Source of the DNA: Halorientalis sp. IM1011
GTDB lineage: Archaea; Halobacteriota; Halobacteria; Halobacteriales; Haloarculaceae
Direction: 5' to 3'
DNA length: 64,000 nt
Assembly: GCF_001989615.1 (NCBI RefSeq)
Contig: NZ_CP019067.1
Coordinates: 2,170,001-2,234,000 of the forward strand
Both the position numbers and the translations under genes were made by a program. Below are positions 47,421 through 64,000 of the stretch, piece by piece. The notes beneath the pieces were generated by a model. That model saw only the letters and a list, made by a program, of their open reading frames with translations, was not told where the DNA came from and made no database searches. The first letter of the stretch is position 1; each line of letters starts with the position of its first letter.

Positions 47421-47541
47421 GGGTGGAGATGCACCCACGCGCGGGTAAAGCTACCTCCCACTGGACGACGCTCTCGTGTCAAATCGCGCTTCGAGTTCGT
47501 CCAACGAGAACGCTCATCGTGATCGAGTCGTATCTGAGGGT

Positions 47542-47802
47542 ATGGAAGTCACGGTGTACGGGCAACTCCGCGGGGCGACCGGCGAGAAGACCGTCGCGGT
47601 CGAGTTCGAGGGCGGGACTGTCCGGGAGGCCGTCCTCGCGTTCGTGACGGCGTACCCACAGACCGAACGGCACCTCGTTCGGGACGACGGGGAGATCGAG
47701 CCGAGTGTTCGGATCGCCGTCGACGGCGAGCGGAACGAACTCGACGATCGGTGTCCGCCGGACGCGTCGATCAGTATCCACCCGCCGATGCAGGGTGGGT
47801 GA
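47542..47802 (+). CDS. MoaD/ThiS/SAMP-type ubiquitin-like protein
   Basis: An 86-residue beta-grasp protein (MEVTVYGQLRGATGEKTV) that ends in the diglycine PPMQGG needed for activation by an E1-like enzyme. It could donate sulfur for molybdopterin (MoaD), modify proteins (SAMP), or both, as known haloarchaeal SAMPs do. Nearby MobA and formate dehydrogenase genes favour molybdopterin supply. It is convergent with the acetamidase gene, five bases apart. The ATG at 47542 gives the standard length; an in-frame extension to 47476 is unlikely. Confidence 0.85.
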   Translation: MEVTVYGQLRGATGEKTVAVEFEGGTVREAVLAFVTAYPQTERHLVRDDGEIEPSVRIAVDGERNELDDRCPPDASISIHPPMQGG

Positions 47803-47807
47803 CAGCC

Positions 47808-49112
47808 TCAGAGTCCGTACTGTTCGCGCACGAGGTGGGCCATCCCGCGCTCTTCGAGTGTCGCCATCGGTGCCAGCATGGTCAGTTGTACGACGCCGGG
47901 GAGTCGCCCGATCTCGACGCCACCCGTGAACGTACAGCGGGTCCGAACCTCGCCTTCGCTCATGTCGAGCAACTTGCCCGCCCGGTCGAAGGCGTTCTCG
48001 GTCGCCTCGTTGATCGTCGCGCCGGACCCGACGACCTGGATCGGTCCCATGTCGGTCTCGACGTCGACCCCGTATTCTTCGCCGAGGGCCTCGCCGCGCT
48101 CGACGTCCTCGTCGCTGTAGGGCTCGCTGATGTGTGGGAGGTCCTCCGCGTTGGGGAGCAAGACCGGGCCGTCGATGTCGAGGTCTTCGATCAGTTCGAC
48201 CTCGAACTCGGTGTAGCCGCTCACGTCGGTCGTGTGCAAGGCGAGTTCGCCGTCGCCCTGGTTCGCGTGCATGTCGCCGACGTAGATCCCGCCGCCCTCG
48301 ACTTTCACCGGACAGAGCAGGATGGACCCCTCTCGTACGGCGTTGATGTCCATGTGGCCGTCCGTTCGCTGGGCGAGTTCCGCCTCGTCTTCGAGCCCCC
48401 AGTCGTGGCCCGCACCGATGAGGAACTGTCCGAAGTCCCCGGCGTTGTGGGAGTCGGGCATCTCGATCGGTGGCGTCGTGCCGATGTTGCCGACGAACGG
48501 CCGCAGGTGGCCGAGCGTTCCGGGCATCTCGGACGGTTCGTACAGCAAGATCGGGTGCTGGCGGGAGTTCTCCGGGAGCGCGCTCGCCTCGTCGGCCCGT
48601 TCGGCGAGGTCGTGGGCTGCCTCTGCATCGACCGTGATCCCGACCTCGCGGTCGTCGTCGAAGACGGTCGTGATGCCGTACTCGAAGGCGAACGAGGAGG
48701 CGTTCGCGCCGCAGTTCGCACAGCGGATCGCGTCTTCCCCAGTGCCCTCGACGACACTCTCGGGCCACTCGATGCCACACTCCGGGCACTTGTGGTCGAC
48801 GAACGGATCGTCGCCGAAGGCGTCCTCCAGTTCGTCCATCGAGCCGGTACTGGTCGCGACGCTCGTGACCTCGATGTCACGGATCTTGATGGCGATCGCG
48901 TCGCCAACCTCTGCCCCCTCGACGGCGATGGGTTTGGTCACCTCGTGTCCGCCCCGGAACTCCGGTGTGATCATCGGCCCCCAGCACGCCGGGGGTGTGT
49001 GCGTCCTGACACGACCGCCGTCCGCGACGGTCCCTGCCCACTCCTGCTCGGGCCCGACCAGCCCGAGGGTGTACTCGTCCACGTCCAGTTCTCGTTCGAT
49101 CTGTTCGGACAT
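47808..49112 (-). CDS. Acetamidase/formamidase-family enzyme with zinc-ribbon insert
   Basis: Hydrolyses a short amide to acid plus ammonia. 434 residues. Family marks include GDMHANQGDGE, CWGPMITPEFRGG and EIGRLPGVVQLTMLAP. An insert with Cys109-x2-Cys112 and Cys131-x2-Cys134 (CPEC, CANC) looks like a zinc ribbon and is absent from the two other homologues here. It is divergent from a BCCT transporter, which may be co-regulated. Substrate preference (acetamide, formamide or other) is not readable. Confidence 0.85.
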   Translation of the reverse strand: MSEQIERELDVDEYTLGLVGPEQEWAGTVADGGRVRTHTPPACWGPMITPEFRGGHEVTKPIAVEGAEVGDAIAIKIRDIEVTSVATSTGSMDELEDAFGDDPFVDHKCPECGIEWPESVVEGTGEDAIRCANCGANASSFAFEYGITTVFDDDREVGITVDAEAAHDLAERADEASALPENSRQHPILLYEPSEMPGTLGHLRPFVGNIGTTPPIEMPDSHNAGDFGQFLIGAGHDWGLEDEAELAQRTDGHMDINAVREGSILLCPVKVEGGGIYVGDMHANQGDGELALHTTDVSGYTEFEVELIEDLDIDGPVLLPNAEDLPHISEPYSDEDVERGEALGEEYGVDVETDMGPIQVVGSGATINEATENAFDRAGKLLDMSEGEVRTRCTFTGGVEIGRLPGVVQLTMLAPMATLEERGMAHLVREQYGL

Positions 49113-51076: not shown

Positions 51077-52837
51077 ATGCCACGACCGACACCGGACACC
51101 ATCCTCCGGGTCGACCTCACAGATCGAACCTGTGTCCGTGACCCCGTCCCAGAGACGTGGCGACGACGGTACATCGGTGGCAAAGGGCTCGGAGCTCGGT
51201 ATCTGTACGCGGAACTCGATTCCGGAACCGAACCCCTGGGCCGGGAGAACCGCCTGTGTTTCATGCTCGGGCCGCTGACGGGATATCTCCCGGGGGAGCA
51301 GCGGTACGCAGTCGTCACCAAGTCTCCGTTGACGGGTGCCTTCCTCGATTCCTACGCCGGTGGGACCTTCCCCGGCGCACTCGCGGGTGCACTCGGAGAC
51401 CACGTCGGGGTGGTGGTGACTGGCAGTGCGGACGAGCCGGTCTGTCTCGTCGTCGAGGACGCCAGTGTACACCTCGAACCGGCCGCGGACCTGTGGGGTG
51501 CCGATACCAGTGAGACGTGTGCGGCGTTTCCCGACGCGTCGGTCGCCTGTATCGGCCCGGCAGGCGAACGTCGGGTCCGATATGCGACCGTCGCGTCCGA
51601 CGGTGGCGACCACCAGGCGGGCCGCGGCGGGGCCGGCGCGGTCATGGGGAGCAAACGACTGAAAGCGATCGTCGCTCGCGGTGACCCACCGTCGGGGCTC
51701 GCGGACCTCCGTGCGGCCTACACGGATCGGTTCGCCGAGGACGCGGTCGGCCGCTGGCAGGCCGCGAGCGAGACGCTCGAATCGGTCGACTTCGCCGACG
51801 AGATCGGCGGGCTCGCGACGCGAGGCTGGGAAGCGAGTCGCTTCGAGGGACTGTCCGACATCGGTATCGAAGCCGCCCGTGGGGTCGCCACCGAGCGCGA
51901 GCGCGACGACGAGTCGATTCCCGGGGGCTTCAGAGTCGAGACCGAGGACGGCGACAGCGTCCCCAGGGGTGCCACCCAGATGACCCTCGGCGCCACGCTG
52001 GGGGTCGAGGAGTTCGACGCCGTGGTGACACTCGGCGACGCCTGTGACCGTCTCGGACTGGACGTCATCAGTGCCGGGAACGCGGTGGCGTGGGCGATGC
52101 TCGCCGCGCGGGAGGGGGTCATCGACCGCGACCTCGCGTTCGGCGATGCGGAGGCGGCCCGCGAACTGCTCGGCGAGATCGCGACCAGACGGACCCCGCT
52201 CGGCGATATCCTCGCACTCGGCGTCAGGTCTGCCGCGGCGGAACTCGGCGCTCGCGACCGTATCCCGCACGTCAAGGGACTGGAAGTGCCGTCCTACGAC
52301 CCGCGTGCCGCGGCGAGTATGGCGCTCGCCTACGCCACGAGCGACAGGGGTGCCTGTCACCGTCGAAGTCGGCCGATCGAACGCGAACCGTTCGCTGGTA
52401 GAGACTGGGCCCCCGAGCGCGCTGCAGCGGCCGTGATCGCCGAGCAGAACACGAGTTCGGTGCGCTGGAGTCTCGTCGCCGACGACTTCGTCGGTGCCGT
52501 GTTCGAGGACCTGGGGGCCGAGTGGCTCGAGGCCGTCGGTGCGCCCGTTCCCGAGGACCTGTCGCTCGCCGGTGAGCGCATCTGGACGCTCACTCGACTG
52601 TTCAATCTCCGGGAGGGATTCACCCGCGACGACGACGCACTTCCCGAGGTCTTCACGGAACCAGTCGATGCGGAGACGGCACGACCGATCGAGCCCGCGA
52701 CGTTCGAGCGGATGCTCGACGCGTACTACGAACTGCGCGGGTGGGATGCGGACGGCCGTCCGACGATCGAGACGCTGGCGCGACTGGACCTGCTGGATGT
52801 CGTCGACGACGAGACGCCCGTCGACCCGGACCGATAG
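51077..52837 (+). CDS. Aldehyde:ferredoxin oxidoreductase homologue lacking cluster cysteines
   Basis: Tungstopterin-enzyme family, 586 residues. Conserved parts are GGKGLGARYLY (about 34-44), GRGGAGAVMGSKRLKAI (182-198), CDRLGLDVIS (323-332), VKGLEVPSYDPR (399-410) and RGACHRRSRP (424-433). The CxxCPxxC motif normally found near residues 280-300 is missing, as no Cys occurs between 159 and 322. The position of the fourth cluster Cys (DSLGLC-type) reads DDFVGAVF. The protein may thus bind pterin without a 4Fe-4S cluster. Electron exit would have to differ, or the enzyme may do non-redox chemistry. Context: between BCCT and the formate dehydrogenase. Confidence 0.82.
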   Translation: MPRPTPDTILRVDLTDRTCVRDPVPETWRRRYIGGKGLGARYLYAELDSGTEPLGRENRLCFMLGPLTGYLPGEQRYAVVTKSPLTGAFLDSYAGGTFPGALAGALGDHVGVVVTGSADEPVCLVVEDASVHLEPAADLWGADTSETCAAFPDASVACIGPAGERRVRYATVASDGGDHQAGRGGAGAVMGSKRLKAIVARGDPPSGLADLRAAYTDRFAEDAVGRWQAASETLESVDFADEIGGLATRGWEASRFEGLSDIGIEAARGVATERERDDESIPGGFRVETEDGDSVPRGATQMTLGATLGVEEFDAVVTLGDACDRLGLDVISAGNAVAWAMLAAREGVIDRDLAFGDAEAARELLGEIATRRTPLGDILALGVRSAAAELGARDRIPHVKGLEVPSYDPRAAASMALAYATSDRGACHRRSRPIEREPFAGRDWAPERAAAAVIAEQNTSSVRWSLVADDFVGAVFEDLGAEWLEAVGAPVPEDLSLAGERIWTLTRLFNLREGFTRDDDALPEVFTEPVDAETARPIEPATFERMLDAYYELRGWDADGRPTIETLARLDLLDVVDDETPVDPDR

Positions 52838-52851
52838 CCGTCGTGGGAAAT

Positions 52852-53409
52852 TTACGATTTCCACAACCGCCACAGCGCCATGTAGAGCGTCCAGCAATCA
52901 CAGTCGAGGCGCTCGGCAAGCTCGCGGCAGGTGTCGAGATACCGCTCGTACTCCCGGACCGACGGCGGGTTCGGATAGGGGGCCGAGAGTTCGTCGGCCT
53001 CCTCCAGCACCGTCCACTCTCGCTCGCCGATCACGATGGCCGTCTCCGGGTCGACGAACTGGAGAAACGCGGACGCGACCGGTACGTCCACGCCAGCGAG
53101 GTCGGTGAGTCGCTCGATGGCTGCCGTGTCCTCGGCCGCGGAAACGGCGTCGTCGATGACCGCGCGAACGGTCTCGAACTCGTTGGTGGCGAACTGATCT
53201 TCGATCCGCTGGCGTTCCTCGTGCGGGACCTCCCCGAGAAAGCGCCGATAGTACCACCTGACGACCCACTCCGCGTCGCGCCACCCGTACGACCCCGTCC
53301 GGAACATTTCCGGGAAGATATCGATCCCCTCCTGCTCGACCGGATAGAGGGGCTCTCTCGCCCGGTACTCTGCTGACTTGGATTCGACGACCGAGCGGGT
53401 CAGTTCCAT
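52852..53409 (-). CDS. Uncharacterised protein, possibly helix-hairpin-helix type
   Basis: A 185-residue mostly helical protein. It has an aromatic segment WRDAEWVVRWYYRRFLGE. A stretch IERLTDLAGVDVPVASAFLQFVDPE recalls the helix-hairpin-helix and following part of DNA-glycosylase-like proteins. The catalytic Lys/Asp cannot be assigned. The C-terminus is rich in Trp and Cys (CDCWTLYMALWRLWKS). The start is the ATG at 53409. It lies between the AOR-like and formate dehydrogenase genes, facing away from the latter. The function is unknown. Confidence 0.6.
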   Translation of the reverse strand: MELTRSVVESKSAEYRAREPLYPVEQEGIDIFPEMFRTGSYGWRDAEWVVRWYYRRFLGEVPHEERQRIEDQFATNEFETVRAVIDDAVSAAEDTAAIERLTDLAGVDVPVASAFLQFVDPETAIVIGEREWTVLEEADELSAPYPNPPSVREYERYLDTCRELAERLDCDCWTLYMALWRLWKS

Positions 53410-53501
53410 GGTAGACGGTCGTCGTCCGCACCCCTGTGTGTTGTGCTCGCTGGCGTGTCGTACCCGCTCGCTCCCATATTTCGCCTGGAACGTCTCCACG
53501 T

Positions 53502-53568
53502 GTGTTAAAAACACTCATGCACGTGCGCCGGTTCTTTCATCGTATACACCGCGGCCGTCGAGCCGCGG
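53502..53568 (+). promoter_or_regulatory. Leader dyads before the formate dehydrogenase gene
   Basis: Two dyads lie in the leader: GTGTT-AAA-AACAC (about 53502-53514), and a 7-bp GC stem CCGCGGC/GCCGCGG with a 6-base loop (about 53549-53568) that ends some 18 bases before the start. They may be operator and leader hairpin. Confidence 0.35.
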
Positions 53569-53585
53569 AATACGGGGCTCCAACC

Positions 53586-55709
53586 ATGTCCAACGACCAA
53601 CAGAATCCCATCAAAACAATTTGTCCGTACTGTGGTGTCGGGTGTGGCATCCAGGTCAGACCCGGCGAGGAACCCGGCGACATGCGGTTCATGCCGTGGG
53701 GCGATGCACCGGTCAACGAGGGACGGATCTGCATCAAAGGCGGCGCGGCGACGGAGGTAGTCGACCACGAAGATAGGTTGACAGAACCACTTATTCGAGA
53801 CGACGACGGGGAGTTCCGGGAGGCCACCTGGGAGGACGCGTTCGAGCGAATCGTCGACGAACTCGAACGGATTCGCGAGGAGCACGGCCCGGACGCGATG
53901 GGCTTCTACGGCTCCTCGAAGGTGATGAACGAGGAGAACTACCTCCTCCAGAAACTCGCCCGTCGCTACGGGACGAACAACGTCGACAACTGCACGCGGA
54001 TGTGTCACGCCTCGACGGTGTGGGCACTACGCCGGAGTCTCGGTGCCGGGGCGATGACCAACAGCATGCGGGATCTGGGGGACGAAGCGGACCTGTTCTG
54101 GATCCACGGCGCGAACCCGGCCGAACAGCACCCGATCGCCAACAGCCAGTACTTCCGACAGGCGGTCCTCGACGGCGCGACCGTCATCCAGGTCGACCCC
54201 CACGCCAACAAGACGACCGAGTCCTTCGAGATCGAGGACACCGACCGGCACATGCACCTCCAGGTCGAACCGGGGACCGACATCCCCCTGCTGAATATCG
54301 TCCTCAAGACGGTGCTGGAAAACGACTGGGTCGACGAGGAGTTCGTCGACGAGCGGACGCGAGGGGTCGAGGATCTGGAGGCGACGCTCGAAGACTTCGA
54401 CAAGGAAGAAGCCGCAGCGACCTGCAAGGTCCCGCTCGAAGACATCGAGACGGCGGCCGAAAAGTACGCGACGGCCGGCAACGCGGCCATCTTCACCGGG
54501 ATGGGGATGAGCCAGCACACCTGTGGCGTCGACAACGTCCAGAACGAGATCAACCTGGCACTGATCACGGGGAACCTCGGCCGACCGGGAACGGGCGTGA
54601 ACCCGCTCCGCGGCCAGAACAACGTCCAGGGGACCTGTGACGTCGGTGCGATGCCGAACGTCCTGCCGGGCTATCAGAACGTCGACGACGACGATGCCCG
54701 GGAGTCCGTCGAGGCGGTCTGGGGCTTCGAGATCCCACCGGAACCGGGACTGACCAACGTCGAAATCTCGATGGCCGCCGGGGACAGCATTCACGGACTG
54801 TACATCATGGGCGAGAATCCCGTGATGAGCGAACCCGACGCGAACGAAGTGGCCGAACGGCTGGAGCGACTGGAGTTCATGGTCGTCCAGGACATCTTCA
54901 TGACCGAGACGGCGAAGTTCGCCGACGTGATCCTGCCGGCGACCTCCTGGGCCGAGCGCGGTGGCACCGTCACCAACACTGATCGGCGCGTCCAGCGGAT
55001 GCGCCCGGTCGAGAAGGTCCACGACGACACCCGACACGACCTGGATATCCTGGCGGAAGTGGGCACACGGCTGTTCGGCGACGACGCTGGCTTCGACTTC
55101 TCGGACCCCGAAGCCGTCTTCGAGGAGCTTCGGCAGGTCTGTCCCAGCTACCACGGGATGACCTACGACCTCCTCGGCGAGGAGGGCATCCACTGGCCCT
55201 GTTACGAACCCGGCGACGAAGGCGACCCGTACCTCTACGAGGAGGAGTTCACGACCGAGGACGGCCTCGGGTACATCGAGGGCGTGCGCCATCAGCCACC
55301 CGCAGAGGTGCCCGACGAGGAGTACCCGCTGGTACTGACGACTGCACGGCTCATCGAACACTACAACACGGGGACGATGAGTCGGCGCTCGCCGACGCTG
55401 AACCGCCAGCACCCGGAGAACTTCGTCGACATCCATCCCGCCGACGCCGACCGATACGGCATCGAGGACGACGACGAGGTGACGATCAGATCACGCCGCG
55501 GTGAAATCACGCTCACCGCGCAGGTCACCGACGACATCAAGGAAGGCGTCGTCTGGACGACGCCGCACTTCGCGGCCGCCTCCGCGAACAGGCTCACCAA
55601 CGAGGCCCTCGACGAGCGCGCGAAGATCCCCGAATACAAGGCCGCCGCAGCAGAGATCGACGTGCGAATCGAACCCACCGACGCCGGTGCCGAGGCCGAC
55701 GACGACTGA
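53586..55709 (+). CDS. fdhA: Formate dehydrogenase large (molybdopterin) subunit, cysteine type
   Basis: A 707-residue bis-MGD enzyme of the DMSO-reductase superfamily. The 4Fe-4S cluster cysteines are 13, 16, 20 and 49 (CPYCGVGC, GRICIKG). The active site has Cys140-His141 in RMCHAST, the exact position of Sec140-His141 in E. coli FdhF, so this is a Cys enzyme. GMGMSQHTCGVDN, RGQNNVQGTCDVGAMPN and the C-terminal NRLTNEALDE region match formate dehydrogenases. No beta/NAD subunit gene is adjacent, so the electron acceptor is unknown (ferredoxin likely). The ATG at 53586 is chosen over a longer frame. A formamidase gene follows. Confidence 0.92.
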   Translation: MSNDQQNPIKTICPYCGVGCGIQVRPGEEPGDMRFMPWGDAPVNEGRICIKGGAATEVVDHEDRLTEPLIRDDDGEFREATWEDAFERIVDELERIREEHGPDAMGFYGSSKVMNEENYLLQKLARRYGTNNVDNCTRMCHASTVWALRRSLGAGAMTNSMRDLGDEADLFWIHGANPAEQHPIANSQYFRQAVLDGATVIQVDPHANKTTESFEIEDTDRHMHLQVEPGTDIPLLNIVLKTVLENDWVDEEFVDERTRGVEDLEATLEDFDKEEAAATCKVPLEDIETAAEKYATAGNAAIFTGMGMSQHTCGVDNVQNEINLALITGNLGRPGTGVNPLRGQNNVQGTCDVGAMPNVLPGYQNVDDDDARESVEAVWGFEIPPEPGLTNVEISMAAGDSIHGLYIMGENPVMSEPDANEVAERLERLEFMVVQDIFMTETAKFADVILPATSWAERGGTVTNTDRRVQRMRPVEKVHDDTRHDLDILAEVGTRLFGDDAGFDFSDPEAVFEELRQVCPSYHGMTYDLLGEEGIHWPCYEPGDEGDPYLYEEEFTTEDGLGYIEGVRHQPPAEVPDEEYPLVLTTARLIEHYNTGTMSRRSPTLNRQHPENFVDIHPADADRYGIEDDDEVTIRSRRGEITLTAQVTDDIKEGVVWTTPHFAAASANRLTNEALDERAKIPEYKAAAAEIDVRIEPTDAGAEADDD

Positions 55710-55855: not shown

Positions 55856-55902
55856 GCGCGTTCGTGGAATCGTCCTACTTGGGCAGACCCGCCCGAGATA
55901 CA

Positions 55903-57171
55903 ATGCCAGAAGTACATTTCGAGGTAGACGTCGACAGTCCGCCGGACGAACAGCCAGGAGCGAACCCGTTCAACCGCTGGCATCCCGAGATCGAGTCGGT
56001 CGTCTCCGCCGAGCCTGGTGACCGGGTCCGACTCGAGTGTCTCGACTGGACGGGCGGCCAGATCGGGGACAACGACGACGCGAACGAGGTCCGGGACGTG
56101 GATCTGAACCAGGTCCACTATCTCTCCGGGCCGGTCGAGGTCGCCGGCGCTGAACCCGGCGACCTGTTGAAGGTGACGTTGCTCGACATCGGGGCGCTGA
56201 ACGACCGCTGGGAGTACGGCTTTACGGGCATCTTCTCCCAGCAGAACGGCGGCGGGTTCCTCACCGACCACTTCCCCGACGCGGCGAAGGCCATCTGGGA
56301 CCTCGACGGGACCTACGTCTCCTCGCGACACGTCCCGGACGTGCACTACGAGGGGAAGATCCACCCCGGCCTCATCGGGACCGCGCCCTCAGAGGCCCTC
56401 CTCGAGGAGTGGACCCAGCGCGAACAGCAACTCATCGAGAAACACGAGGAAGACCCGGGTTCGATCCCGGACCACCCGACCGGCGAGTCGGAGCCGCCCG
56501 TGGCGAGCCCACCGACGGAAGAGGGCGCACAGCCCGGTGAAGCGTCCGGCGACGCGGCGGACCGGATCGCCGAGGAGGGCGCGCGGACGGTCCCACCGCG
56601 GGAACACGGCGGCAACTGTGACATCAAGGACCTCTCGCTCGGCTCGACGATCTACTTCCCGGTGTTCGTCGAGGGGGCGAAGTTCGGTATCGGAGACCTC
56701 CACGCCTCCCAGGGCGACGGGGAGATCACGTTCTGTGGCGCGATCGAGATGGCCGGCTACGTCGACCTGCAGTTCGAACTCGTGAAAGACGGGATGGACA
56801 AATACGGCGTCTCCCACCCGATCTTCGAGCCCGGCCACCGCGGGCCGAACTTCAGCGAGTACGTCGTCTTCGAGGGCTACTCCGTCGACGAGGACGGCGA
56901 ACAGCACTACATCGACTCACACGTCGCCTACCGACGCGCCTGTCTCCAGGCTATCGACTACCTGGAGCAGTTCGGCTACACGCGCGAGCAGGCCTACGTG
57001 ATCCTCGGGACCGTCCCGGTGGAGGGTCGACAGAGCGGCGTCGTCGACATTCCCAACGCCTGTTCGACTCTCGCCCTCCCGAAAGACGTCTTCGAATTCG
57101 ACGTCAGTCCCGACGGCCTCGATGAGGCCCGCGACCGCGGGCAGATCACGATCACGGACGACCCGCTCTGA
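55903..57171 (+). CDS. fmdA: Formamidase (FmdA/AmdA family)
   Basis: Hydrolyses formamide to formate and ammonia. 422 residues. The formamidase-type signature HPGLIGTAPSEALLEEW is present, as are GNCDIKDLSLGS, GDLHASQGDGEITFCGAIEMAG and VDIPNACSTLAL. An acidic, proline-rich insert (about 195-230) is typical of haloarchaeal expansion. It lies 193 bases after the formate dehydrogenase gene in the same direction, linking amide hydrolysis with formate oxidation. The start is the ATG at 55903, following the AT-rich promoter. Acetamide or other short amides are possible alternative substrates. Confidence 0.9.
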   Translation: MPEVHFEVDVDSPPDEQPGANPFNRWHPEIESVVSAEPGDRVRLECLDWTGGQIGDNDDANEVRDVDLNQVHYLSGPVEVAGAEPGDLLKVTLLDIGALNDRWEYGFTGIFSQQNGGGFLTDHFPDAAKAIWDLDGTYVSSRHVPDVHYEGKIHPGLIGTAPSEALLEEWTQREQQLIEKHEEDPGSIPDHPTGESEPPVASPPTEEGAQPGEASGDAADRIAEEGARTVPPREHGGNCDIKDLSLGSTIYFPVFVEGAKFGIGDLHASQGDGEITFCGAIEMAGYVDLQFELVKDGMDKYGVSHPIFEPGHRGPNFSEYVVFEGYSVDEDGEQHYIDSHVAYRRACLQAIDYLEQFGYTREQAYVILGTVPVEGRQSGVVDIPNACSTLALPKDVFEFDVSPDGLDEARDRGQITITDDPL

Positions 57172-57662: not shown

Positions 57663-58388
57663 ATGGACCTCGTCACCGCACTCGGGGCCGAGGGGCTCGT
57701 CTGTGTCGTCGGTGCCGGTGGGAAGAAATCCACCCTCTGGCAACTGGCCGTCCGGATCGACCGTGCGGTGGTCACGGCGACCGTTCGGATCCCCATATTC
57801 GACCCGCACGTGAGCGCGGTCAGCGTGACCGAGAACCCGGTCGAGGCGATTCGAGGGGCCGACACGTGGCCGCTCGGCCTCGTCCCCGAACGGGAGGGCG
57901 ACCGCTATCTGGGATACGAGACGGAAACCGTCGAGCGAATCGCCGGGACCGAGCCTCCCGATGCCGTCCTGGTCAAGGCCGACGGCGCACGAATGCGGGA
58001 GTTCAAGGCCCCGAACGACGCCGAGCCCCGGATTCCTACGGCGACGGACACCGTCCTGCCCCTCGTCAGCGCACACGTCGTCGGCAAACCGCTAACCGAC
58101 GACTACGTCCATCGGGTCGATCGCGTGGCCGCACTCACGGACCTCTCACCGGGCGAGGAGATCCGCCCAGACAACGTCGCCAGAGTAGTGACGAGCCCCA
58201 ACGGTGGGTGCAAGGACGTACCCGACGGAGCGACGGTCGTCCCGGTGGTCAACAAAGTCGACGACGACGCCGACGAGGAAGCCGCCAGACGGATCGCGTC
58301 TGCGGTCCTCGCCACCGACCGGGTCGACCGCGTCGCGCTCACACGTATGATCGCCGACGACCCGATCGTGGCCGTGCTCGGCGACTGA
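57663..58388 (+). CDS. yqeC: YqeC-family cofactor-maturation protein
   Basis: A 241-residue P-loop protein with GAGGKKST near residues 17-24, the YqeC signature, then VVTATVRI and VLVKADGARMREFKAP. In bacteria YqeC is linked to selenium-dependent molybdenum hydroxylases, where it is thought to act in cofactor or selenium insertion. No selenium genes are visible here and the formate dehydrogenase is a Cys enzyme. The likely job is molybdopterin cofactor maturation for it. It is convergent with mobA, 16 bases apart. Confidence 0.85.
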   Translation: MDLVTALGAEGLVCVVGAGGKKSTLWQLAVRIDRAVVTATVRIPIFDPHVSAVSVTENPVEAIRGADTWPLGLVPEREGDRYLGYETETVERIAGTEPPDAVLVKADGARMREFKAPNDAEPRIPTATDTVLPLVSAHVVGKPLTDDYVHRVDRVAALTDLSPGEEIRPDNVARVVTSPNGGCKDVPDGATVVPVVNKVDDDADEEAARRIASAVLATDRVDRVALTRMIADDPIVAVLGD

Positions 58389-58404: not shown

Positions 58405-59013
58405 TCAGAACTCCTCCGTGGCTGCCTGCAACTCCTCGCGTGTGTTGATATTCCGGAAGGTGTCGTCGTCGGCGTGGGTGCGGATCTCCTCGGCATCGAC
58501 GACGACGTACTCGAGTGTGAACAGCGGCTCGACGATCCTGTGCTCGCCGTCGGCGAGCGCCTCGGCACAGGCCGCCGCCATGGACTCCGTCCGGTAGACC
58601 GCCTGTGTCGTCTGGAACCACTCGTCTTCGACCTGTGGGACGGCCGCGTCGTGGCCCCGCGCTCGCTCGAACAGGTAGGCGACGAACTCGGCGTCGACGA
58701 AGGGCATATCACAGGCGACGACCGCCGCGTACTCGCCGCTCGCTTCGCGAAGTCCGGTCTCGATACCGGCCATCGGCCCCCGGTCCGGCTCGGGGTCCTC
58801 GGCGAAGGTGACCGGGAAATCGAGGTCCGCAAGCGCCGCCGCGAGCCGTTCTCGCTGGTCCGGGCGACAGTTCACGACCACCTCGTCGACCACGGCTTCG
58901 AGTCGGTCGGCGACACGGCGAATCATCGGTGTTCCCGCGAGGTCCGCGACCGCCTTGTCCGCGGATCCGAACCGCGTCGAGTACCCGCCCGCGAGGATGA
59001 CGCCGCTTCGCAT
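58405..59013 (-). CDS. mobA: Molybdenum cofactor guanylyltransferase
   Basis: Joins GMP to molybdopterin to give the guanine dinucleotide form that bis-MGD enzymes such as the adjacent formate dehydrogenase require. 202 residues. The N-terminal LAGGYSTRFGSADKA is the MobA nucleotide loop; DRGPMAGIETGL and VVACDMPFVD are family marks. The start is the ATG at 59013. The gene is divergent from an unknown small gene. A 17-bp inverted repeat lies 38 bases before its start. Confidence 0.9.
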   Translation of the reverse strand: MRSGVILAGGYSTRFGSADKAVADLAGTPMIRRVADRLEAVVDEVVVNCRPDQRERLAAALADLDFPVTFAEDPEPDRGPMAGIETGLREASGEYAAVVACDMPFVDAEFVAYLFERARGHDAAVPQVEDEWFQTTQAVYRTESMAAACAEALADGEHRIVEPLFTLEYVVVDAEEIRTHADDDTFRNINTREELQAATEEF

Positions 59014-59050
59014 CACCGCCCGTTCGCCCGGTGGATACCTAAACGTTTCA

Positions 59051-59067
59051 CAGGTGGGCATCACCTG
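59051..59067. promoter_or_regulatory. Inverted repeat upstream of mobA
   Basis: CAGGTG and CACCTG, perfect 6-bp arms around a 5-base spacer, 38-54 bases upstream of the mobA start on the minus strand. A possible operator; no matching copy was found before fdhA or the AOR-like gene. Confidence 0.4.
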
Positions 59068-59158
59068 ACCGACGCGACCTATCTGAGCATGAAGCAAGCT
59101 TTATTCCGACCCCTGCCGGGAGAGGGTGTATGATATGTGACACTCGCGGGGCAGCGTC

Positions 59159-62852: not shown

Positions 62853-64000
62853 TCAGGACGGCTTGGCCAGGTCGCCCCGGTCGGTCGAGGGCGCGGTCTC
62901 GTCTGCGAGTCCGTCGGGGTCGATATCGAACTCGAAGACCTCCTTCGGGACGGAGACGGTGACGCAGGTGTTGGGCAGGTCGACGATACCGGCGATGCGG
63001 CTCTCGACGGGCACGCAACTGAGCAGCTGGTAGGCCTGCTCGCGCGTGTAGCCGAACTGTGCGAGGTAGTCGATGGCGTCCAGGCAGGCCCGGCGCATGC
63101 CGACGTTCGCGTTCTTGTAGTGCTGGGTCCCTTCCTCGTCGACGGAGTAGCCCTCGAAGACGACGTACTCCGAGAACTGCGGCTCGACGTTGCCGGGCGT
63201 GAACAGGGCGTAATCGGTCCCCATCTTCTCCATCCCGTTCTTCACGAGGTCCACCTTCAGGTCGATGAAGCCCGCCATCTCGATCGCCCCACAGAAGGTG
63301 ATCTCGCCGTCGCCCTGCGAGAAGTGCAGGTCGCCCGTGATCAGGTTCGCACCGTCGACGAACACGGGCAGGTACACGCGTGAGCCGCGGCTCAGGTTCT
63401 TGATGTCACAGTTGCCGGCGTTCTCCCGCGGCGGGATCGTCCGAGCGGCCTCCGCGGCCGCCTCGTCGACTTCGTCGTCGTCGAGGTCGCCGAGCAACAC
63501 GTCGTCGGATTCCGGGGGCAGGGCCAGCGGCGGTTCCTCCTCGCGGGTCTCGTGATTAACGGCCGTCTCGTCGTCCGGGCCACGGTCGATGAGCGCCTGT
63601 TCGCGCTCGTTCCACTCCTCGAGTAGCTCGTGGGAGGGTGCTGTGCCCACGATCCCCGGGTGTGAGAGCCCGGCGAATCGGACGTCCGGGATGTGCCGTG
63701 AGGTGGCGTAGACGCCATCGAAATCCCAGATGGACTTTCGCGCTTCCGGGAAGTGGTCGGTGAGGAACCCACCGCCGTTGTCGAGTTCGAAGATGCCGTT
63801 GAACCCCCACTCGTGGTCCGGGAACGGGCCGAGGTCGAGGATATCGACGACCAGCATGTCGCCGGGTTCGGCACCCTCGACGCGAATCGGCCCACTGAGG
63901 TGATGGTTCGGCGCGAGGTCCATGTCTCTGATATCGTCGGCACTGTCGTCGTTGACGACCTGATCCCCCGTCCAGTCTAGACACTCGACGCGGAACTTCT
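62853..64000 (-). CDS. Formamidase-family homologue, 5' end beyond the window
   Basis: Third acetamidase/formamidase homologue. The visible 381 residues (C-terminal part) continue in frame past the ATG at 63923 to the window edge, with RVECLDWTG upstream matching the family. So the ATG at 63923 is internal and the true start is outside. HPGIVGTAPSHELLEEW, GDLHFSQGDGEITFCGAIEMAG and IVDLPNTCVTV show close relationship to the formamidase at 55.9 kb. The acidic insert and C-terminus differ. It is convergent with the chaperonin gene (60 bases). Likely a formamide or short-amide hydrolase. Confidence 0.9.
   Translation of the reverse strand, partial: KFRVECLDWTGDQVVNDDSADDIRDMDLAPNHHLSGPIRVEGAEPGDMLVVDILDLGPFPDHEWGFNGIFELDNGGGFLTDHFPEARKSIWDFDGVYATSRHIPDVRFAGLSHPGIVGTAPSHELLEEWNEREQALIDRGPDDETAVNHETREEEPPLALPPESDDVLLGDLDDDEVDEAAAEAARTIPPRENAGNCDIKNLSRGSRVYLPVFVDGANLITGDLHFSQGDGEITFCGAIEMAGFIDLKVDLVKNGMEKMGTDYALFTPGNVEPQFSEYVVFEGYSVDEEGTQHYKNANVGMRRACLDAIDYLAQFGYTREQAYQLLSCVPVESRIAGIVDLPNTCVTVSVPKEVFEFDIDPDGLADETAPSTDRGDLAKPS

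Follow-up and report, generated by a model that had tools for sequence, protein, structure and literature searches.

The window analysed here is a 64,000-nucleotide stretch of Halorientalis sp. IM1011 (NZ_CP019067.1, positions 2,170,001 to 2,234,000), and our subject is the gene at 51077-52837 on its forward strand, which opens with ATG and encodes a 586-residue protein of the aldehyde ferredoxin oxidoreductase (AOR) family lacking all four cysteine ligands of the family's [4Fe-4S] cluster. In its vicinity lie genes for a formate dehydrogenase (FDH) alpha subunit, a formamidase, YqeC, a MobA-type protein, a SAMP1/MoaD-like protein and a BCCT transporter. The 3.78-Mb haloarchaeal genome encodes two further AOR-family paralogues, each with all four cluster cysteines, and NCBI labels the members of the clade of the cysteine-less (Cys-less) protein only as 'aldehyde ferredoxin oxidoreductase C-terminal domain-containing protein'.

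A full AOR fold without cluster ligands

By its domains and fold the protein is a member of the AOR/WOR family of tungsten-containing oxidoreductases. The open reading frame (ORF) matches both AFOR_N (E 1.4e-66) and AFOR_C (E 3.1e-88) of Pfam, and its best solved relatives by sequence are 9mqx, 1aor and 1b25, AORs of bacteria and archaea. Modelling, which an earlier sequence-only reading of the gene had suggested, returned the complete AOR fold: the predicted structure (pLDDT 86, pTM 0.91) superposes on 9mqx, 1b25, 9g7j and 1aor with template modelling (TM) scores of 0.89-0.91. Local confidence is low at residues ~399-402 and 426-429, beside the active site, as might perhaps be expected of a model built without its cofactor.

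The losses that the same reading had described are borne out by alignment with P. furiosus AOR (PfAOR), whose aligned sequence (residues 9-601) provides the numbering used here and agreed with the known cluster and active-site positions. Cys288, Cys291 and Cys295, of the segment it had given as CxxCPxxC, fall on D278, I281 and F285 of the 586-residue protein, and the fourth ligand, Cys494, is replaced by D469. No cysteine occupies any of these positions in 47 of 47 aligned members of the haloarchaeal clade to which the protein belongs, and the four ligands are found in none of 59 members when the orthologues of three alignments (47, 10 and 2) are combined. A rebuilt, cysteine-free segment (residues 274-300; 51896..51976, +) takes the place of both CxxCxxxC and E311-Y312-E313; the latter reads R, G, A across the 47 members, with G at the third position in four and S in one, and the cluster-loop region is predicted to form a β hairpin with strands at 285-289 and 292-294. 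Further along, WSLVADDF (52466..52489, +) replaces the second DxxGLC motif, with D489 changed to W and C494 to D in 47 of 47 members, where the sister clade retains the cysteine. Of these changes, the sequence-only reading had passed over those at E311, Y312, E313 and D489.

Much of the pocket itself is preserved, and the pterin and substrate motifs quoted in the sequence-only reading (GGKGLGARYL, CDRLGLD, VKGLEVP and RGACH) are all present. The equivalents of R76, T243, D343 and H448 are invariant (47/47) and that of Y427 nearly so (46/47). They include Arg76 itself (same number in PfAOR; 51302..51304, +), the residue linking pterin and cluster in 1aor, the first pterin-binding DxxGLD motif, DRLGLD (52046..52063, +), whose D338 equivalent is D or N, and RGACHRR with the His448 equivalent (52346..52366, +). 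The published active-site set of Thr243, Glu313, Tyr427 and His448 (PMC13328260) is thus incomplete, Glu313 being present in 0 of 47 members and the other three kept. The clade also has residues of its own throughout, namely W464, D469, R297 and R429. Its only invariant cysteines are C323 and C427, and the matching positions are also Cys in cluster-bearing AORs; displaced cysteines acting as substitute ligands, which would have undone the sequence-only reading, were accordingly rejected.

A widespread clade linked to FDH, YqeC and MobA genes

The search for a conserved clade with the same losses, likewise suggested from the sequence, uncovered a single one. A maximum-likelihood tree built from 83 sequences places the Cys-less proteins in one group with an SH-aLRT support of 100, and its sister, with full support, is a haloarchaeal clade in which all cluster ligands, E311-Y312-E313 and His448 are retained. 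The Cys-less gene is carried by about 125 of the 243 haloarchaeal genomes in the sample, and these span most haloarchaeal families, with Haloferax and Haloarcula among the genera. All four cysteines are present in every AOR examined outside the clade (7 from the sister clade, 20 from other orders of the phylum and the 2 paralogues of the same genome), and nearly all of the cluster-bearing AORs that were compared share the E311-Y312-E313 residues. Outside the order, the best matches in a sample of the phylum did not exceed ~41% identity, and the 20 retrieved from among them all keep the cysteines; an origin outside haloarchaea was rejected on these grounds. Comparison of the gene with an 88%-identical orthologue gave dN 0.062, dS 0.272 and a dN/dS of ~0.23 for this one pair.

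Family clustering of the genes around the Cys-less gene identified FDH alpha at 51 of 81 loci, YqeC at 27 and MobA at 20; at 62 of the 81, one or more of these three lie within ~8 kb. An FDH with an intact active-site motif lies within 8 kb at 44 of the 68 loci with full flanks, against a chance expectation, roughly estimated from 1-3 FDH genes per ~3.5 Mb, of ~1% for a random gene. YqeC is found within 10 kb at 63 of 101 places, often less than 1 kb away, and the order yqeC-mobA-AOR-FDH is annotated in Haladaptatus. None of FDH, YqeC or MobA occurs near the Cys-bearing sister gene in seven loci. That sister (Natrialba magadii plasmid, L171; Natribaculum, L225/L226) is 43-49% identical but still has CxxCxxxC and EYE as well as the fourth Cys.

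In the window, the FDH alpha gene (53586..55709, +) is of the Cys type, with the class A motif NVDNCTRMCH, class A relatives and a TIGR01591 match above the cut-off (E 9.8e-224); its ORF opens at 53436, with the likely start at 53586. YqeC (57663..58388, +) matches TIGR03172, carries the P-loop GAGGKKS and belongs to a selenium-independent type, in a clade apart from the selD-linked YqeC. On the opposite strand, 58405..59097 (-) encodes a candidate MobA-type molybdenum cofactor guanylyltransferase, recognised by sequence resemblance and as a conserved neighbour in 20 loci; RefSeq gives the name molybdenum cofactor guanylyltransferase to the equivalent gene in a related locus.

Several further associations were seen at these loci. 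A DUF7124 protein is encoded directly downstream of the Cys-less gene, on the same strand, at 17 loci (e.g. L109:6985-7839), HdrA/FlpD-like Fe-S proteins accompany the nearby FDHs (L036, L037, L039-L041, L091 and L131), and NarJ/TorD-like chaperones stand beside them at some loci. The Cys-bearing sister gene on the Natribaculum luteum plasmid (L226) adjoins aldehyde dehydrogenase and polyamine transport genes, which suggests an ordinary aldehyde-oxidising AOR.

Formate dehydrogenases without FdhD, and YqeC without SelD

FdhD is the usual sulfurtransferase and chaperone of FDH, acting on bis-molybdopterin guanine dinucleotide (bis-MGD). It was detected (PF02634, FdhD-NarQ) in 0 of the 243 haloarchaeal genomes, in that of IM1011 not even at E<=10, and in 8 of 14 control genomes, methanogens and Sulfolobus included. 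FDH alpha itself is present in 164 of the 243; among 14 genomes that have the Cys-less protein and fall below the strict FDH threshold, 13 hold an FDH homologue at E<=1e-60, several of them within 10 kb of the gene. According to a 2023 review, halobacteria possess FDHs but no fdhD, and which proteins carry out cofactor insertion and sulfuration is an open question (PMC10609526).

The FDHs near the Cys-less gene fall into three motif classes, NCTRMCH, NCARLCH and DHQARICH. A further motif, NCNRLCH (class D), is carried by 16 of the 17 FDH genes that were retrieved from genomes without YqeC; no FDH near the Cys-less gene was found to have it. Because class D FDHs occur without it, the Cys-less protein is not required by all haloarchaeal FDHs, and a universal substitute for FdhD was rejected. 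The genomes with class D FDHs (L205-L221) are without FdhD, without YqeC and nearly always without the Cys-less AOR.

Across the 243 genomes, the Cys-less AOR and YqeC occur together in 124, the former alone in 1, the latter alone in 31 and neither in 87 (Fisher p 5e-38, with no correction for phylogeny). Three genomes have the Cys-bearing sister alone, and none of them has YqeC. YqeC has been proposed as an accessory or marker of selenium-dependent molybdenum hydroxylases (PMC2276186), which makes SelD the natural confounder. True SelD is found in 24 of the 243 genomes and is absent from 105 of the 125 with the Cys-less protein, the IM1011 genome having none at E<=1e-20, and the reading of YqeC as a mark of a selenium enzyme was therefore rejected. 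Among the 24 SelD genomes, all 20 with the Cys-less protein have at least two YqeC and all 4 without it have one (p 9e-5); in two of those four (G243 and G076) the single YqeC is encoded next to selD and falls in the distinct selD-type clade. The model predicted for YqeC has a pLDDT of 96, and the P-loop is invariant. The best structural hits of the YqeC model are to the G-proteins MeaB and IcmF, which gate the loading of cofactors, and these hits are weak (E 1.7e-3 and worse, TM ~0.4); a sequence-profile search against solved structures found nothing.

A proposed role in cofactor delivery

In light of these results, we infer that one clade of the AOR family gave up redox catalysis and predict that its members are redox-silent pterin-binding proteins. 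AORs such as 1aor hold one metal on two pyranopterins that carry no nucleotide, and MobA adds guanosine monophosphate (GMP) to give bis-MGD, the guanylated form of the cofactor used by FDH. A cluster-less, acid-less AOR fold with its pocket retained could thus plausibly carry the precursor. In the proposed sequence the Cys-less AOR would bind a Mo- or W-pterin and then hand it on, YqeC, with its P-loop and MeaB-like G-protein fold, would act together with it in assembly or delivery of the cofactor, MobA would add GMP, and the recipients would be particular FDHs of organisms without FdhD. That the protein has some accessory role in Mo/W-pterin handling for FDH we consider close to an even call. 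The fuller account, in which an AOR has evolved into a dedicated carrier of Mo/W-pterin and, with the selenium-independent YqeC, replaces FdhD for certain haloarchaeal FDHs, is put forward tentatively, as a proposal more apt to fail than to hold in all its parts.

Several observations weigh against this proposal. Some loci lie near neither FDH nor YqeC (e.g. in Halostagnicola), and others sit within betaine and one-carbon (C1) gene sets, a setting that a C1-metabolic enzyme would suit as well. Class D FDHs are found in genomes where both YqeC and the Cys-less protein are missing, and 27-31 genomes have YqeC without the Cys-less protein. The co-occurrence statistics for the Cys-less AOR, YqeC and SelD ignore shared ancestry. 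On the pterin side of the pocket D489 is changed to W and N93 to Y, comparable changes being already present in the Cys-bearing sister. Finally, deletion of yqeC in C. difficile gave no clear phenotype (PMC11448449).

Among the alternatives, a Mo/W-pterin enzyme carrying out a non-redox reaction (hydration, lyase or transfer chemistry) on a C1 or aldehyde metabolite tied to formate metabolism would fit the retained equivalents of His448, Tyr427, Thr243 and Arg76, as well as the betaine, dimethylglycine and folate C1 genes, formamidase or formate-tetrahydrofolate ligase found at some loci. We nevertheless judge it unlikely: no member retains Glu313 or the EYE stretch, and the closest genomic tie is to the cofactor genes YqeC and MobA and not to any one substrate pathway. 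Slightly less probable is a pseudoenzyme that, as a scaffold or sensor without a cofactor, regulates or stabilises FDH or YqeC. The loss of both active-site acid and cluster and the clade-wide novel residues speak for it; the invariant pocket residues, which make sense only with a pterin, speak against it.

The sequence-only reading had left two options, an alternative exit for electrons or another function on a metal-pterin, and the second is now favoured because the loss of the cluster is accompanied by that of Glu313 and its neighbours. The strongest lead, the association with YqeC, MobA and FDH in genomes that have no FdhD, comes from beyond the coordinates which that reading covered. A redox enzyme that passes electrons without its own Fe-S cluster, for example straight to FDH or another partner, is in our view less probable again. 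FDHs with NuoF-like and HdrA/FlpD-like subunits are often close by, and loss of the cluster alone could be tolerated if a partner docked near the pterin; yet Glu313, Tyr312, Glu311 and Asp489 were lost along with it, and no consistent Fe-S partner is directly adjacent. The loss of several catalytic residues might also be put down to a decaying gene or a sequencing artefact, which the earlier reading had named as a possible undoing of its claim. Conservation refutes this, with identical losses in 59 orthologues, presence in about half of the genomes sampled and the dN/dS given above, and we rejected it as wholly improbable.

Returning to the proposed carrier, its relation to known systems can be drawn from both sides. 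It shares with the solved AOR/WOR proteins (9mqx, 1aor and 1b25) the fold, both AFOR domains, DRLGLD, Arg76, Thr243 and His448, but differs in the missing [4Fe-4S] ligands and Glu313/Tyr312/Glu311, in D489->W and C494->D, and in its linkage to YqeC, MobA and FDH. P. furiosus WOR4, reviewed in PMC12096430, likewise belongs to the AOR family, has changed cluster ligands and is not known to have an activity; it lacks a single Cys and retains a 3Fe-4S cluster, whereas the clade lacks all four and has its ligand loop rebuilt. With FdhD the Cys-less protein would share the client and the place in the pathway, but the folds are unrelated. WorX/ThiS-like proteins and YqeC resemble it as neighbours of pterin enzymes; the latter, a known marker gene of selenium-dependent Mo hydroxylases (PMC2276186), occurs here without SelD.

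A 2026 survey of more than 4,000 family members reports highly conserved cofactor ligands and, in the passages searched, describes no cluster-less group (PMC13328260); our literature search, within the papers available to us, found no cluster-less AOR and no link between YqeC and FDH. The clade is an exception to that conservation across most haloarchaeal families, and together with its YqeC it offers concrete, deletable candidates for the gap in FDH cofactor insertion and sulfuration. Should the proposal hold, it would exemplify a redox enzyme becoming a cofactor carrier, give YqeC a role outside selenium and define a new kind of molybdo- or tungsto-cofactor maturation factor.

The remaining neighbours can be described briefly. 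Between the Cys-less gene and FDH, 52852..53514 (-) encodes a 220-residue protein with no Pfam or NCBIfam match; it is a conserved neighbour of FDH, at up to 14 loci in haloarchaea. Three FmdA/AmdA-type genes surround the FDH, at 47808-49112 (-), 55864-57171 (+) and 62853-63923 (-); only that at 55864-57171 passes the NCBIfam formamidase cut-off, 47808-49112 being a divergent member and 62853-63923 recognised by eye only. Their presence suggests a route from formamide through formate to CO2 at this locus. AOR genes are known to have ThiS-like WorX proteins encoded nearby (PMC13328260), and a SAMP1/MoaD-like protein with a GG C-terminus is encoded at 47476-47802 (+), barely above the NF041918 cut-off.
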